From Glaciimonas sp. PAMC28666 (GTDB lineage Bacteria > Pseudomonadota > Gammaproteobacteria > Burkholderiales > Burkholderiaceae_D), in NCBI RefSeq assembly GCF_016917355.1, contig NZ_CP070304.1, positions 496,001 to 560,000 of the forward strand: a DNA stretch of 64,000 bases, written 5' to 3'. The number at the start of each line of letters is the position of its first letter. Position 1 is the stretch's first letter. Shown here one piece after another: positions 16,640 to 22,240 of the stretch. The notes under the pieces were generated by a model. That model ran no database searches. It was not told the DNA's origin and saw nothing but the letters and a program-made list of their open reading frames with translations. The translations under genes and the position numbers were made by a program.

Positions 16640-17479
16640 TCAAACTGCGATGGTTGCTACGGCGCATTGCGAATGTGAAGCGGCCGTTCGTGGTCGCCAC
16701 GGCCATACAAGTAATTCAGTCGCAATGCGGCGAAAATCGACGGCTGCAGGACTTGTCTGAAACGCTTCCACCACAGTCCGATGCAATTGGTGCGCATGCG
16801 GTAAATGTGGATCGGTCACCACGCAACCGGCAGGCTCCAGCGCAAGCGCCAGGTAGCGGCTGCCGGTGCTGGCAAGATTACTTTGCACGCGCTGCGCCTC
16901 GGGTAAGCTCGCGGCGCCATTAATCATGATGCGCAGCTGTTGCAGGGCATGGACATAATGCAGCCGCTTGATACAGGCGTAAGCCGCCGTAATCGACGCC
17001 GCTTGCGGCCGCAAAATCACGACCACGTCGTCGGCCTGCGCGGCTAGCGGCGACAACGCGCCATCGCTATCGAGGCGGGCGTCGATCAATAAAACCTGCC
17101 CTTGAAACAGGGCGCGCAAATCTGCAGATCCGCTGTCCGGGGTACGATCGGCCTCAGCTATCGGCATGACCAGAACACCGCAATCAGCCCGTCCGGCAGC
17201 AGCACCCAACGACAAGCGTTGCGCGGTGACATCAGCCCAAACTCCCGTGGCCTGGATATTCCAGATTGCACAGGCCGACTGCGCTCCACCGGTCTCGTCG
17301 AGCAACAGCACCTCCTTGCCCTGTTGCGCCAATGCAGCGCCCAGATTGAGTGCGACGCTGGTCGCGCCCACCATCGGGCTGCTGCCAACCAGCGCAACAA
17401 CGCGGGTCGGATGAGCGCCGGAGTGACGCGCCATCAAACGACGTAAACCATCAGCCTGATCGCTCACCAGCTTATTCAA
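16640..17479 (-). CDS. flhG: FlhG/FleN-type MinD-like ATPase with degenerate P-loop
   Basis: FlhG is the MinD/ParA-like partner of FlhF that controls flagellar number and stimulates FlhF GTPase. The 279-residue product starts at TTG 17479, chosen because a perfect GAGGAGG stands five bases upstream; a longer ATG reading from 17548 overlaps flhF and adds unrelated residues. The N-terminus carries the FlhF-activating motif as SDQADGLRRL (residues 6-15). The expected deviant Walker A (KGGVGKT) is instead GSSPMVGATS (32-41): both the signature Lys and the P-loop Lys are missing. The fold context (VVALVG, NLGAALAQQGKEVLLLDE, VLLIDA) is still that of the family. It lies between flhF and fliA. ATP hydrolysis is doubtful, but a role as FlhF regulator remains plausible. 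Confidence 0.85.
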   Translation of the reverse strand: MNKLVSDQADGLRRLMARHSGAHPTRVVALVGSSPMVGATSVALNLGAALAQQGKEVLLLDETGGAQSACAIWNIQATGVWADVTAQRLSLGAAAGRADCGVLVMPIAEADRTPDSGSADLRALFQGQVLLIDARLDSDGALSPLAAQADDVVVILRPQAASITAAYACIKRLHYVHALQQLRIMINGAASLPEAQRVQSNLASTGSRYLALALEPAGCVVTDPHLPHAHQLHRTVVEAFQTSPAAVDFRRIATELLVWPWRPRTAASHSQCAVATIAV

Positions 17480-17489
17480 AATCGCCTCC

Positions 17490-20129
17490 TCAACCCTGTA
17501 CCGCGGCGACACCCGGCACGCGCTGCGACGCCATTCCGCTATCCGCATCCAGTGTCAGTGCCAACGTCTCCAGTAATACGAACAATTTGCCTAAACCCTC
17601 AAACAACACCGCAGCGGACGCCGGACGCGCCGCGCCGGCCCGTACCGGACGCCCGGATAGTTGCACCAGCAGACTACGCGCCACCTTGGCCCAGTCATCC
17701 CGCGCCTGCAACAGACGCCATACCGTGATGCTGGCCTGGCCGGCGGTCAACATACGCTTGAGCATGTCGGCATCGCCCGGCTGACCGCAACCGCCAAGCT
17801 GATTTACGGCCTCCTTCAGTAATCTGAAATACGGATCAACCTCGACCCGCCAGCGGTACCATGCAACAAGCTGCGACCCGCTCACTTGCGCACCCAGATT
17901 GCTCAGCAAATACCAGTGCGCCAGTAGCTTGCCGCTTTGCGGGTCGACAATCCGAGCAACGACACAGCGCAAAGTCGGCAACAAGCTTGATAAGACCTCG
18001 GTATCGGGCCTGCCTTTGACGCTCAAGCGCAACCTGACCGGCATCTCCGCCAATGATTGCAGGGCCGCCTTGCCCTTGTACATGACGCTTTGTGGGGGAG
18101 CGAATGCGAGTTTGTCAGCCAGTCTGGCCAGGGTCGCGCCAGGCTTACCATCGGCGTCGATCACTGCGCTTGTGGCGCGGCCCCGCACCAGCCAGCATAG
18201 TCCGCTGGCCTGCCATGTCAGCAGCATGTCGGGTAGTGGCATGCGCTCCGGCAGATGCACCATCGGCTTTCCAAAGTCTTGCTGCCGCAACCAATCGAGT
18301 TGCCGCAAACTGGCAGCGGCCGCCTTGCCTGACGTTGAATCCGGCATGCTGGCAGCAGTTGTCAGCAACTGGTGTGGGGCCGCCAATGGTATACCGTCAC
18401 GGTCCGACAGCAACAAGCTCCCATGCAATGCATAGGCGTCACCACTCTGCTCTGAATGCAGGGCAACTTTGCCGCCCATTGCCAATACATAGGCATCGCA
18501 ACCCGAATCTACTTCGGTACTGGCCTGCATCAACAGTTTCTTCTCCAGCATTCTGGTACTGATGGTGTCGTCGGTCAGGTCGCGCCACAAAGCCCGCGTA
18601 CCGTCGAAACCGATTTGACCACCGGCCAGCGCATCAACATTCGCGGAGAGCTCTTGTGCATCGTGCGTCAGCGCGCGGATCAACTGTTGACATTGCGTCC
18701 GCAGGCGGGCCATTAGTGCGGCTTGTGCGGCTTGCGCAACTGCCTCCGCGGCCGCGCCTTCGACTTCCTGTGGTAACGGCGTCGGACTTTGGTCCAGATC
18801 CGCCTCGCCGGGAACGAACAACGCACTTCGACTCTCTGCCTGAAACACGCTTTCGACAAGTTGTAATCGGTCGGCGACCATCAGGTTTTCCGGTACCTTC
18901 TGGCCTGTCGAGACATAATGTACCGGCAACCGGTGCCGAATCACTGTATCGATCAGCACGCCTGGATGCGTGGCCTCGTCAACTTTGGTGAAGATACAGC
19001 CAGCCAGCTCGTTGTCGCCCGCGCCATGTTTATAGGCGTGCACCACTTCGTTGAGGGTATCGCCATGGCAGGCAGCGTTGAGCAACAGCAGACGCTTGAC
19101 CGGACGGCCGGCACCACACAGCATGGCAACCTGATCAGAGACGCTGCGGTCGCGCTGGCTCTTGCCAACGGTATCGATCAGCACCATGTGCTTGTCACGC
19201 AAATCGTTCAGTACCAGCCGCAGATCGCTGGCATCTTTCACCGCATGAACCGACACGCCCAGAATCTGTCCATAGATACGCAACTGCTCAAAAGCGCCGA
19301 TCCGATAACTGTCAGTTGTCAGCAGCGCCAGCTTTTCCGGGCCGAAGCGCATCACGCACCGGGCCGCAAGCTTTGCAGTGGTCGTCGTTTTTCCGACACC
19401 GGTAGGTCCCATCAATGCATAAACGCCGCCGCTGTCCATCATGGCGCTTTCGTTTTCCATCACAGGAAGATTCCGTGCCAGTTCTGCCTTTACCCAAGCC
19501 GTGCCGGAGGCGAAATTCTGGCCGGTCGGCAGATGATCAAGCATCGCCTTGGCCAGCCGTGCGCTAAAACCAGCACCGAGCAACATCCGCAACAGATGTC
19601 CGCGCACCGGATCGCGCCGTTGCTTGTCATTCCATGCCAGGCCGGCAAACTGCTCTTCGATCATGCTGCGCATCGCATGAATTTCGCTGATGACACTATC
19701 GGTCGCTGGCCCCGGTGGCAGACCGTCCGACAAAGCGGCGACCGGTAATGATACCTGGACAGGAGCGACGATGGGCGCCACCGCGGGAACGGCTGCCATC
19801 ACTGGCATGATCGGACGGGTTGAGATAGCCGGATCCATTGTCGCGGCAAAGGACGGTGCAGCGATGGGCGCGATGGTCGGCATAACAGCGGGAGGCGATT
19901 CCATGACCGGCATGACTGGACGTTCTGGCGCAACCGCTTGCCTCGGTGCCAGACGGGACGGCACCGGTGGCAGGTCCGCACTATCGGCGATGGCGATGAT
20001 TTCTACGCCGTCGGCGTGGGCACGATTCGACAAAATAACGGCGTCAGGTCCCAGTTGCTCGCGAACCAGGCGCAAGGCTTCCCGACTGGTGGGAGCAACG
20101 ATGGTGGTCGCATTGTTAGGGGTGTTCAA
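17490..20129 (-). CDS. flhF: FlhF SRP-type GTPase fused to a transposase-like C-terminal domain
   Basis: FlhF is an SRP-family GTPase that sets the site and number of flagella. The protein has 879 residues, about twice the common 400-500. Residues 1-50 form the N-terminal B region (SREALRLVREQLGPDAVILSNR), 50-145 a Pro/Ala/Met-rich linker, and 150-435 the NG domain with P-loop GPTGVGKT (241-248), DSYRIGAFEQL, DTVGKSQRD (319-327) and TKVDE (381-385). Residues about 505-820 resemble a Tn5/IS4-type DDE transposase core with altered catalytic residues and a YREK-like signature Tyr758, Arg761, Asp765, Lys772. The start is TTG 20129, overlapping the flhA stop by four bases, with GGAGG upstream. The reading frame is unbroken and translationally coupled on one side and nearly abutting flhG on the other. 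The FlhF assignment is sure; the role of the extension is unknown. Confidence 0.93.
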   Translation of the reverse strand: MNTPNNATTIVAPTSREALRLVREQLGPDAVILSNRAHADGVEIIAIADSADLPPVPSRLAPRQAVAPERPVMPVMESPPAVMPTIAPIAAPSFAATMDPAISTRPIMPVMAAVPAVAPIVAPVQVSLPVAALSDGLPPGPATDSVISEIHAMRSMIEEQFAGLAWNDKQRRDPVRGHLLRMLLGAGFSARLAKAMLDHLPTGQNFASGTAWVKAELARNLPVMENESAMMDSGGVYALMGPTGVGKTTTTAKLAARCVMRFGPEKLALLTTDSYRIGAFEQLRIYGQILGVSVHAVKDASDLRLVLNDLRDKHMVLIDTVGKSQRDRSVSDQVAMLCGAGRPVKRLLLLNAACHGDTLNEVVHAYKHGAGDNELAGCIFTKVDEATHPGVLIDTVIRHRLPVHYVSTGQKVPENLMVADRLQLVESVFQAESRSALFVPGEADLDQSPTPLPQEVEGAAAEAVAQAAQAALMARLRTQCQQLIRALTHDAQELSANVDALAGGQIGFDGTRALWRDLTDDTISTRMLEKKLLMQASTEVDSGCDAYVLAMGGKVALHSEQSGDAYALHGSLLLSDRDGIPLAAPHQLLTTAASMPDSTSGKAAAASLRQLDWLRQQDFGKPMVHLPERMPLPDMLLTWQASGLCWLVRGRATSAVIDADGKPGATLARLADKLAFAPPQSVMYKGKAALQSLAEMPVRLRLSVKGRPDTEVLSSLLPTLRCVVARIVDPQSGKLLAHWYLLSNLGAQVSGSQLVAWYRWRVEVDPYFRLLKEAVNQLGGCGQPGDADMLKRMLTAGQASITVWRLLQARDDWAKVARSLLVQLSGRPVRAGAARPASAAVLFEGLGKLFVLLETLALTLDADSGMASQRVPGVAAVQG
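17670..18617 (-). other. Transposase-like (Tn5/IS4 fold) region within flhF
   Basis: This is the part of flhF coding residues about 505-820. Read against the Tn5 transposase as I recall it, collinear blocks appear: RALWRDLTDDTIS (AYRF...N block), YVLAMGGKVAL (first Asp block, LLAIEDTTSL in Tn5), YALHGSLLLSDRDGIPLA (VHSVLLL block), SGKAAAA, then MVHLPERMP (second Asp block, VCDREAD in Tn5) and CWLVRGR (FVVR). Next comes MPVRLRLSVKGR, and HWYLLSNL leads into the YREK block. The catalytic positions read Gly552/553, Glu628 and Asp765 where Tn5 has Asp97, Asp188 and Glu326. No terminal inverted repeats or target duplications flank it. Confidence 0.75.
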
Positions 20130-22240
20130 CCTTTTCCTCCGATAGTGGCGGTCACTTTAATGGTACGGGTATCCGGAATCTCAGCATGAGACAGCACCTT
20201 GAGCTGCGGCAGGCTGCGGCGCAAAAAGCGCGCCAGCAAAGCCCGTAGCGGATGTTGTACAACCAGGATGGGGACCAAACCAATTTGTTCCTGTCGGGCA
20301 ATTGCCGCCTGCGTTTGTCGTAACAGGTTGTCCGCTAGTCCCGGCTCCAAACCGCTGCCATTGCTCAATGCCTGCAGTAACACGCGATCAAGCGAAGCGT
20401 CGAGGCCGATGACCTGCAGCGCCTCTTTACCGGGGAACAATTGCTGCGTGATCGCACGACCCAGCGCCAGACGCACTAACGACGTCAACTCGTTGACATC
20501 GCTCACGCTTGGGCCATTTTCGGATAACACATCAAGAATGGTGCGCATGTCGCGGATCGATACACTTTCATCAAGCAAGTTCTGCAATACCTTCTGCACA
20601 CTGGTCAGACTGAGTATCTTGGGCACCAGATCCTCGGATAGCTTGGGTGCGTCCTTGGCGATACGGTCCAGCAGTTGCTGAACTTCCTGCCGTCCCAGCA
20701 ACTCGGCCGAATGCGTATGGATCAGGTGGTTCAGATGGGTCGCCACGACGGTACTGGCATCAACCACGGTATACCCGAATATCTGCGCCTGTTCGCGCAA
20801 ATTCTTATCGATCCAGAAGGCCGGCAGACCGAAGGCCGGATCAATCGTCTGGGTGCCCGGCAGCTTGGCGCTCACCTGCCCCGGATTGATGGCCATCCAT
20901 TGACCGGGCCAGGTTTCGCCATGGCCGATCTCGACGCCCTTGAGCGTAATCACATAGGCATTCGGTTTCAGTTCCAGATTGTCGCGGATGTGCACCACCG
21001 GCACCAGAAAACCGATATCCTGCGCAAATTTCTTACGGATGCTCTTGATGCGGCCCAACAACTCTCCCTTTTGGGCTTTATCCACCATTGAAATCAGCCG
21101 ATAGCCGACTTCCAGCCCAAGCGTATCCACCAGCACAACGTCGTCCCAGGTCGCCTCGGCAGGCTCTTCCGATCCCGTAAATGCCACCGCTGGTGTTTTC
21201 GACGCCACCGCTCCGCGCGCAGTACTCTGCATCCGGCGGCGTCCGATCCAGCAAAGGCCGCCGGCGATAATTAGAAACGCCACATGCGGCATACCAGGCA
21301 CCAGGCCCATGAGCCCAATAATACCGGCCGTCAAAAACAGCACCTTGGGATTGGCAAACAACTGCCCCATCAATTGCTGCCCGACGTCTTCATTAGTCGT
21401 CACGCGCGACACAATCACACCGGCGGCGGTCGAAATCACCAATGCCGGAATCTGCGCCACCAGGCCATCACCGATCGTCAGCAAGGTGTAATTCTTTGCG
21501 GCCACCGACAGATCCAGCCCATGTTGGGCGACACCGACAACCAAACCGCCGATGATGTTGATGAACATAATGAGCAATCCGGCAACCGCGTCACCGCGCA
21601 CGAATTTACTGGCGCCATCCATCGACCCGTAAAAATCAGCTTCTTGCGCCACTTCGGCCCGGCGCTTGCGCGCAACATCCTCGCCGATCAGACCGGCATT
21701 GAGATCGGCATCAATCGCCATCTGCTTGCCCGGCATTGCATCGAGCGTAAAGCGCGCGCCAACCTCGGCGATACGCCCGGCACCTTTGGTGATCACCATA
21801 AAGTTGATGACTACCAGAATGATAAAGACCACAATGCCGACCGCAAAATTGCCGCCGACCAGGAAATGTCCGAAAGCTTCGATGACCTTGCCGGCTGCAT
21901 CTGGCCCGGTGTGGCCTTCGAGCAAAACAATTCGGGTAGAGGCAACGTTAAGCGACAGCCGCAATAGAGTTGAAAACAGCAAAACTGCCGGGAAAGCAGC
22001 GAAGTCGAGCGCCTTCATCGTGTACATGCTGACCAGCAGCACCATCACCGACAGGGCGATATTGAAGGTAAACAGCAAATCAAGCAGAAATGGCGGGAGT
22101 GGCAGGATCATCATGCCAAGGATCATGATGATCAGGATCGGCCCGGCCAAACCTTTCATCTGTCCGCTTGCCTGCAATAGCGTTGGCAAGCGCAACAAGG
22201 AAGACAATCCTGCCATCAATGAGGTATTTTCCTGCTTCAT
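20126..22240 (-). CDS. flhA: Flagellar export gate protein FlhA
   Basis: FlhA is the large gate protein of the flagellar type III export apparatus; it forms a nonameric cytoplasmic ring that docks chaperone-substrate complexes and couples export to proton flow. The 704-residue protein has eight predicted membrane helices in its first half, with the family motif region GAGRIAEVGARFTLDAMPGKQMAIDADLNAG in the cytoplasmic loop. A linker and the large soluble domain follow (DDVVLVDTLGLEVGYRLISMVD and onward, ending ILVVQHPLRALLARFLRRSL). Its ATG overlaps the flhB stop as ATGA, and its stop overlaps the flhF TTG start, so the three genes are translationally coupled. Confidence 0.98.
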   Translation of the reverse strand: MKQENTSLMAGLSSLLRLPTLLQASGQMKGLAGPILIIMILGMMILPLPPFLLDLLFTFNIALSVMVLLVSMYTMKALDFAAFPAVLLFSTLLRLSLNVASTRIVLLEGHTGPDAAGKVIEAFGHFLVGGNFAVGIVVFIILVVINFMVITKGAGRIAEVGARFTLDAMPGKQMAIDADLNAGLIGEDVARKRRAEVAQEADFYGSMDGASKFVRGDAVAGLLIMFINIIGGLVVGVAQHGLDLSVAAKNYTLLTIGDGLVAQIPALVISTAAGVIVSRVTTNEDVGQQLMGQLFANPKVLFLTAGIIGLMGLVPGMPHVAFLIIAGGLCWIGRRRMQSTARGAVASKTPAVAFTGSEEPAEATWDDVVLVDTLGLEVGYRLISMVDKAQKGELLGRIKSIRKKFAQDIGFLVPVVHIRDNLELKPNAYVITLKGVEIGHGETWPGQWMAINPGQVSAKLPGTQTIDPAFGLPAFWIDKNLREQAQIFGYTVVDASTVVATHLNHLIHTHSAELLGRQEVQQLLDRIAKDAPKLSEDLVPKILSLTSVQKVLQNLLDESVSIRDMRTILDVLSENGPSVSDVNELTSLVRLALGRAITQQLFPGKEALQVIGLDASLDRVLLQALSNGSGLEPGLADNLLRQTQAAIARQEQIGLVPILVVQHPLRALLARFLRRSLPQLKVLSHAEIPDTRTIKVTATIGGKG

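Follow-up and report, generated by a model that had tools for sequence, protein, structure and literature searches.

The flhF gene described here lies in a 64,000-nucleotide (nt) stretch of the genome of Glaciimonas sp. PAMC28666 (contig NZ_CP070304.1, positions 496,001 to 560,000), which we call the window and number from its first letter. It is an open reading frame (ORF) of 879 codons at 17490..20129 on the minus strand, with a TTG start at 20129 and a stop at 17492-17490. Its product consists of an N-terminal B domain with a linker, an NG GTPase and a C-terminal domain (CTD) that, judged by its sequence homology, is a transposase by descent. The flhA gene (20126..22240, minus strand) lies upstream and overlaps flhF by 4 nt (TTGA); flhG (16640..17479, minus strand; 279 amino acids, aa) has its TTG start at 17479, 10 nt past the flhF stop, and GGAGG stands ahead of both the flhF and the flhG starts. 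A preliminary description of this DNA had recognized the coupled operon with these spacings and had given no strand. The N-terminus of FlhG, SDQADGLRRL, fits the FlhF-activating motif DQAxxLR (PMC12826062), and this motif and the gene order flhA-flhF-flhG are those expected of FlhF.

The GTPase part, of the signal recognition particle (SRP) type, spans residues ~143-439 (18813..19703, minus strand), with the P-loop GPTGVGKT at 241-248 and TKVDE at 381-385. It matched SRP54 (PF00448) at residues 236-429 with E=3.1e-33 (115.5 bits, cut-off 22.7) and the FlhF model TIGR03499 with 256.8 bits (cut-off 174.15). In its NG GTPase with P-loop and TKVDE, its place between flhA and flhG and its FlhG partner with a DQAxxLR-type motif, the protein resembles FlhF as known from TIGR03499; it differs in a transposase-derived domain of ~390 residues behind the G domain. 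A 2025 review describes FlhF with B, N and G domains (PMC12826062). NCBIfam already lists the long form under FlhF: its 768-position model of long FlhF, NF011312 (PRK14723, 'flagellar biosynthesis regulator FlhF'), covers it end to end, CTD included, although the model's name is silent on a transposase or on the C-terminal half. This model aligned with window residues 9-856 at 859.8 bits, below its cut-off of 951, and matched all 20 fused CTDs presented below. In a survey of 399 genomes of the order, the cut-off was passed in two, both from genus g401 of family f212, among the matches listed.

Homology of the C-terminal domain to IS4-type transposases

Behind the GTPase, a linker (residues 440-471, PGEADL..., 18717..18812, minus strand) lies outside the match to a free-standing transposase. 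The transposase-derived domain proper (residues 472-858, 17556..18716, minus strand) comprises an N-terminal region, catalytic-core homology and a C-terminal region, as delimited by that match and by hhalign. The preliminary description had seen transposase blocks at about residues 505-820; the homology is real, and its true extent is ~472 to ~858.

We searched 392 genomes of the family with window residues 440-879 (E<=0.001) and obtained matches in 31. Twelve were fused FlhF (window included). One genome, G082, carried a free-standing ORF of 436 aa (L044), and another, G063, an L044-like ORF cut by the contig end. Matches in the remaining 17 ranged from 6e-8 to 9e-4; nine ORFs among these genomes read as insertion sequence (IS) transposases of the IS4 type with D-D-E, one of which was checked against Pfam. 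L044 matched CTD residues 33-418 with E=2.8e-45 and 35% identity, and in the reciprocal search the window's genome yielded a single match to L044 at E<=1e-20, namely the flhF CTD (6.5e-45). L044 has HDW, VDREAD and Y-x2-R-x3-E-x6-K all intact. It matched DDE_Tnp_1 with 27.3 bits (above the cut-off of 23), IS4_3 with E=3.8e-26 (92 bits, below the cut-off of 160) and NF011312 at positions 409-767 with E=2.1e-41. In the PDB, Tn5 transposase was reached by a profile of the L044 group with E=0.003 and by the Tn5-type set with 7.4e-42; ribosomal protein S8, which appeared beside Tn5 in the L044-group search at E=0.5, was taken as a chance match.

Profile comparison with hhalign aligned 12 CTDs with the L044 group at 100% (E=2.3e-46, 372 columns), with a score of 333.6 compared to a maximum of 25.0 in 40 column shuffles and 14.4 for the reversed profile. 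Against nine Tn5-type transposases the alignment reached 94.3% (E=1.1e-7, 275 columns), with a score of 63.1 compared to 24.3 and 20.8, respectively. The transposase likeness first noticed by eye in the letters thus held up far above both controls. The C-terminal region of the CTD aligned with the C-terminal region of the transposases, and homology extended over nearly the whole transposase. The IS4-type transposases near L044 (Acinetobacter, Citrobacter, Methylotuvimicrobium plasmid 'transposase') are alike over nearly the whole sequence and 24-35% identical to the window CTD; in the FlhF domain, unlike in these enzymes, the first catalytic Asp and the next ~13 residues are missing, the domain is part of a fusion protein, and repeats do not flank it. 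To Tn5 transposase and Tn5-type IS4 transposases the homology is distant, with a remnant of the YREK signature in the window, and the FlhF domain differs in lacking the DDE triad.

Single-sequence searches returned less. The window CTD alone matched no Pfam family and gave a weak match to IS4_3 in NCBIfam (E=2.5e-4); the Tn5 dimerisation and Tnp_DNA_bind Pfam families did not match the CTD, PHROGs gave nothing at E<=0.01, and no relatives were found in viral contigs. Several other hits were set aside: a heat shock protein, the best single-sequence PDB match of the CTD, was meaningless at E=0.32, and three non-transposase Pfam families (each in one of 15 CTDs, E 0.017 or worse) and a fosfomycin-resistance NCBIfam model (one of 20 CTDs, E=0.0016) were taken as chance.

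The donor group, L044 and its kin, looks mobile, because two copies of an IS-like element of ~1.36 kb in genome G656 (L062, L067), one of them interrupted, share stretches 92-98% identical over ~1.36 kb of the first copy and have inverted matches of 32 and 44 nt between their ends (91% and 84%, imperfect). Internal stops show that copies in G656 are broken. The intact DDE of the free-standing relatives and the group's repeats speak against their having been derived from flhF.

Catalytic positions of the fused domain

G553 (18471..18473, minus strand) stands where transposases have their first catalytic Asp; this Asp was absent in all 20 fused proteins, unlike the D-D-E of IS4-type enzymes, and the ~13 residues that follow in transposases are missing. 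The second is E628 (18246..18248, minus strand), D or E in 17 of 20, and the third, normally Glu, is D765 (17835..17837, minus strand), which is D or E in 15 of 20; all five proteins that differ at this third position belong to f4. Alignment by hhalign with the free-standing relatives reproduced these assignments, which the preliminary description had made, and the length and residues it had named proved correct (879 residues, P-loop 241-248, TKVDE 381-385, G552/G553, E628, Y758, R761, D765 and K772). Its exact YREK spacing is present in the window, which reads Y-R-D-K (Y758, R761, D765, K772); since the place of Y758 is Tyr in just three of the 20 proteins, window included, this is best seen as a remnant and not as a conserved motif. 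DDE transposases such as Tn5 employ two-metal cutting. With the first catalytic Asp lost, such cutting is not expected of the fused domain, and transposition activity is likewise predicted to be absent.

No inverted repeats flank the domain, as had been described: 17300-18900 holds only a 20-nt pair (80%) and a 14-nt pair (93%), every arm of which lies within the domain.

Distribution and history of the fusion

Twenty surveyed genomes from four families of the order (f1, f4, f18 and f212), the window's among them, encode the fusion, as do two named Cupriavidus: the FlhF of C. metallidurans CH34 (825 aa) and of C. campinensis (835 aa) are fused, and each lies between flhA and flhG. The frame is unbroken, by stop or frameshift, in all of them, as the preliminary description had it for the window, and on the strength of this shared architecture we reject an assembly or frameshift artefact.

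In the order survey, a CTD profile matched 7/399 genomes at E<=1e-15; in six of them the match was a fused FlhF, in the seventh a free-standing transposase. NF011312 matched 255/399 at E<=1e-60, and at least 10 of those 255, from f1, f4, f18 and f212, reached model position 742 or beyond. Nine of 15 genomes of genus g44 matched at E<=1e-40, all nine with the long form, compared to one long form among four genomes of genus g13. In three of the four searched congeners of the window genome, the model matched only weakly and in its GTPase part. A survey of the class gave five of 345 genomes at 1e-6: the window's own, and four others that hold free-standing copies or fragments. The CTD was also present in four Cupriavidus plasmid records, among them the C. 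metallidurans CH34 and C. campinensis records named above, and a plasmid search with an f4-type CTD gave no match. Genus g401 is probably Cupriavidus, because its FlhF is 70-77% identical to those of C. metallidurans CH34 and C. campinensis.

In the CTD tree, built with five of the nine collected Tn5-type ORFs and with the first 20 CTD residues cut, all 20 fused proteins fell on one side of a branch (100/99) adjoining the L044 group. The GTPase tree held the 20 fused proteins and 35 of 38 hand-picked short FlhF loci (L012, L013 and L096 escaped the motif used to collect them and were left out). It placed all 20 fused proteins in one clade (100/99), with three short FlhF inside: two f212 proteins and one from a Burkholderiales metagenome-assembled genome (L031:2849-4183). 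In the latter, a stretch of ~59 transposase-derived residues remains, apparently left behind when the domain was lost. Three fused/short changes are required by this tree; most simply, we infer one gain of the domain and two later losses, with catalysis probably lost before the fused forms spread, again as the simplest inference. Flagellar clusters may also have moved. The flhA of G094 (L128, fused type) is 88-90% identical to that of a g44 genome, G047, yet 67-68% identical to that of its congener G016 (L129, short type), which suggests that the clusters were exchanged between lineages, and an f18 genome (G1096) falls among f1 in the GTPase tree, pointing to transfer.

Selection and retention of residues

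Pairwise ratios of non-synonymous to synonymous change (dN/dS) were 0.12-0.38 for the CTD in nine pairs (0.12 coming from a nearly saturated dS, and a tenth pair being saturated) and 0.012-0.067 for the GTPase in ten. Synonymous change in the CTD exceeded non-synonymous change in each of five pairs tested (Fisher p 4.7e-5 to 1.3e-29). Purifying selection acts on the CTD, more weakly than on the GTPase.

We then scored retention at columns invariant in the mobile relatives (14 Lys/Arg, seven acidic and 52 hydrophobic) compared to random columns, omitting one of the two near-identical G656 copies. The 14 basic columns remained from 21 after His and columns poorly filled in FlhF were dropped; the figures are for class retention. 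Invariant columns are generally conserved, which makes random columns a lenient control; the comparison between classes is fairer. Basic columns were still Lys or Arg at a frequency of 0.86 in the window (12/14) and 0.77 in f1 and f18 together (13 proteins), compared to 0.36 in f212, 0.39 in f4 and 0.08-0.10 in random columns. Acidic columns were kept at 0.29 in the window (2/7), 0.33 in f1 and f18, 0.32 in f212 and 0.20 in f4 (random 0.08-0.11), and hydrophobic columns at 0.88, 0.82, 0.68 and 0.69 (random 0.46-0.48). Retention of residue identity in the window's clade, taken from the version with 21 basic columns, was 0.45 for basic, 0.49 for hydrophobic, 0.21 for polar and 0.13 for acidic positions.

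FlhG in relatives with the fusion

In the f1, f18 and f212 loci L123, L124, L126, L128, L135 and L136, flhF is flanked by flhA and by an flhG that carries the DQAxxL motif. A profile built from five FlhG and searched genome-wide found FlhG beside flhF in 6/6 searched f1, f18 and f212 genomes (E 1.8e-80 or better). In the f4 loci with enough upstream sequence (L116, L122, L125 and L127), flhA runs into flhF; downstream, these loci and L091 had no DQAxxL-motif ORF (5/5) within the 1.5-3.3 kb examined. In the five f4 genomes that encode the fusion, the best profile match reached only 2.0e-12 to 9.9e-9, began behind the motif and was ParA/MinD-like. Family f4 therefore seems to pair a fused FlhF with loss of FlhG, unless its FlhG has diverged beyond the reach of the profile. 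As five f4 fused FlhF stand without a recognisable FlhG, these results argue against FlhG contact as the general role of the domain, and weaken the preliminary description's proposal of such a contact. An f4 genome with a short FlhF, G026, had a weak profile match (1.0e-6) just downstream of flhF.

Discussion

The central claim of the preliminary description, an FlhF fused to a domesticated and probably catalytically dead IS4/Tn5-type transposase, is borne out by transposase matches far above chance, unbroken frames and selection. We propose that, in an ancestral member of Burkholderiales, an IS4-type insertion sequence inserted in frame into the 3' end of flhF, and that its entire transposase was thereby turned into the CTD of FlhF. 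FlhF uses an N-terminal FliG-binding domain and an NG domain that binds the landmark HubP to anchor early parts of the flagellum; it acts as a GTP-dependent homodimer, and the DQAxxLR helix of FlhG stimulates its GTPase (PMC12826062, PMC11236974). The FlhF-FlhG switch in the window looks intact, as its FlhG carries SDQADGLRRL. Each FlhF dimer would gain two dead transposase domains behind its G domains. That the fused IS4-type transposase is catalytically dead and was exapted to give the FlhF homodimer an accessory module for binding, its fold being kept, is the reading we favor, with a probability of roughly 0.6.

What the module binds may differ between groups. In the window's clade, where basic positions are kept and acidic ones are not, the most likely ligand would be DNA or another polyanion, and the nucleoid or DNA might then hold or count FlhF on top of the contacts it usually makes. 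Most basic positions have changed in the FlhF of Cupriavidus type and of f4 type, where the domain may act mainly via protein contact or dimerisation. The nucleic-acid binding suggested earlier thus gains some support from the basic positions kept in the window's clade. A grip on DNA through these residues, tying flagellar place or number to the nucleoid or to particular DNA, strikes us as rather unlikely; if true, it would be a control layer unknown for FlhF.

Several observations weigh against parts of this account. On the side of homology and structure, 15 CTDs gave no Pfam transposase family at E<=0.1, IS4_3 matched just three of 20 CTDs at E<=0.01, the fused-CTD profile found nothing in the PDB at E<=1, and single-sequence AlphaFold2 prediction of residues 466-862 alone had a mean predicted local distance difference test (pLDDT) score of 37.2, too low for use. 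As to history, G1016 and G1098 form long branches in the CTD tree, gain and loss look alike in a count of changes on a tree, and conservation of the operon setting is partial, since flhG does not come next after flhF in five f4 loci. Some short FlhF inside the fused clade are without the domain, which is therefore not needed for basic FlhF function. As to binding, basic retention is low in f212 and f4, though still above random columns (8 and 0 of 2000 random draws as high, respectively), so that DNA binding may not be general; the 13 f1 and f18 rows are close kin; the retained Arg and Lys may be structural rather than binding; and the domain is not strongly basic, with an isoelectric point of 9.1 in the window and 5.8-9.1 across the 20.

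Transposases of the IS4/Tn5-type family act as dimers. We consider it a little short of an even bet that the fold is kept only as a protein-protein scaffold, for FlhF homodimerisation or for docking a polar landmark or the C-ring, with no nucleic acid involved. Hydrophobic invariant positions are kept in all groups while basic retention drops outside f1 and f18, the C-terminal region aligns with that of transposases, and FlhF itself functions as a GTP-dependent homodimer with FliG and HubP contacts (PMC12826062, PMC11236974), all of which counts in favor of a scaffold. It accounts less well for the window's clade, which keeps basic positions about as well as hydrophobic ones, by class (0.77 compared to 0.82) and by identity, and polar and acidic positions not; FlhG is an unlikely general partner, since f4 keeps the domain without a recognisable one.

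A slowly decaying, functionless relic, tolerated because truncation would disturb translational coupling to flhG, appears improbable. It would fit the dN of the CTD, which in ten pairs exceeds the GTPase value by a factor of ~4-23, and the three short FlhF inside the fused clade, L031 with its stump among them. Against it, no stop or frameshift has entered any of the 20 surveyed or two Cupriavidus proteins, dN lies well below dS in the five pairs tested, and five f4 genomes retain the domain although no flhG follows, which excludes coupling as the cause there. Chance likeness, or a shared generic RNase H-like fold without descent, could draw on the missing Pfam match and the weak IS4 match of the window CTD, and is very improbable given near-full-length homology to one particular group of free-standing IS4-type transposases, with scores far above those of the shuffled and reversed controls.

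No report of an FlhF-transposase fusion was found in open PubMed Central text, most subscription papers being beyond that search, and the word 'transposase' is absent from the main text of PMC12826062 and PMC11236974. The earlier statement that no such system had been described holds insofar as no report naming a transposase was found; it missed that NF011312 already models long FlhF. The fusion seems old, kept by evolution and apparently not described before. If our reading is right, exaptation of a whole bacterial transposase into a flagellar-placement GTPase is an unusual fate for an insertion sequence, and the domain is a new, testable part of FlhF, a protein about whose workings outside polar gammaproteobacteria little is known. 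A cultured strain, C. metallidurans CH34, carries the fused flhF, and natural comparisons are offered by relatives with domain-free FlhF and by family f4, with the domain and no recognisable FlhG.

FlhF length varies at the other end of the protein as well. A family f9 FlhF of 741 aa (L119:198-2420) has no C-terminal domain and owes its length to several hundred extra residues ahead of the GTPase, and the fused f4 FlhF of genome G891 (L125:2162-5209) reaches 1016 aa with a very long pre-GTPase stretch.

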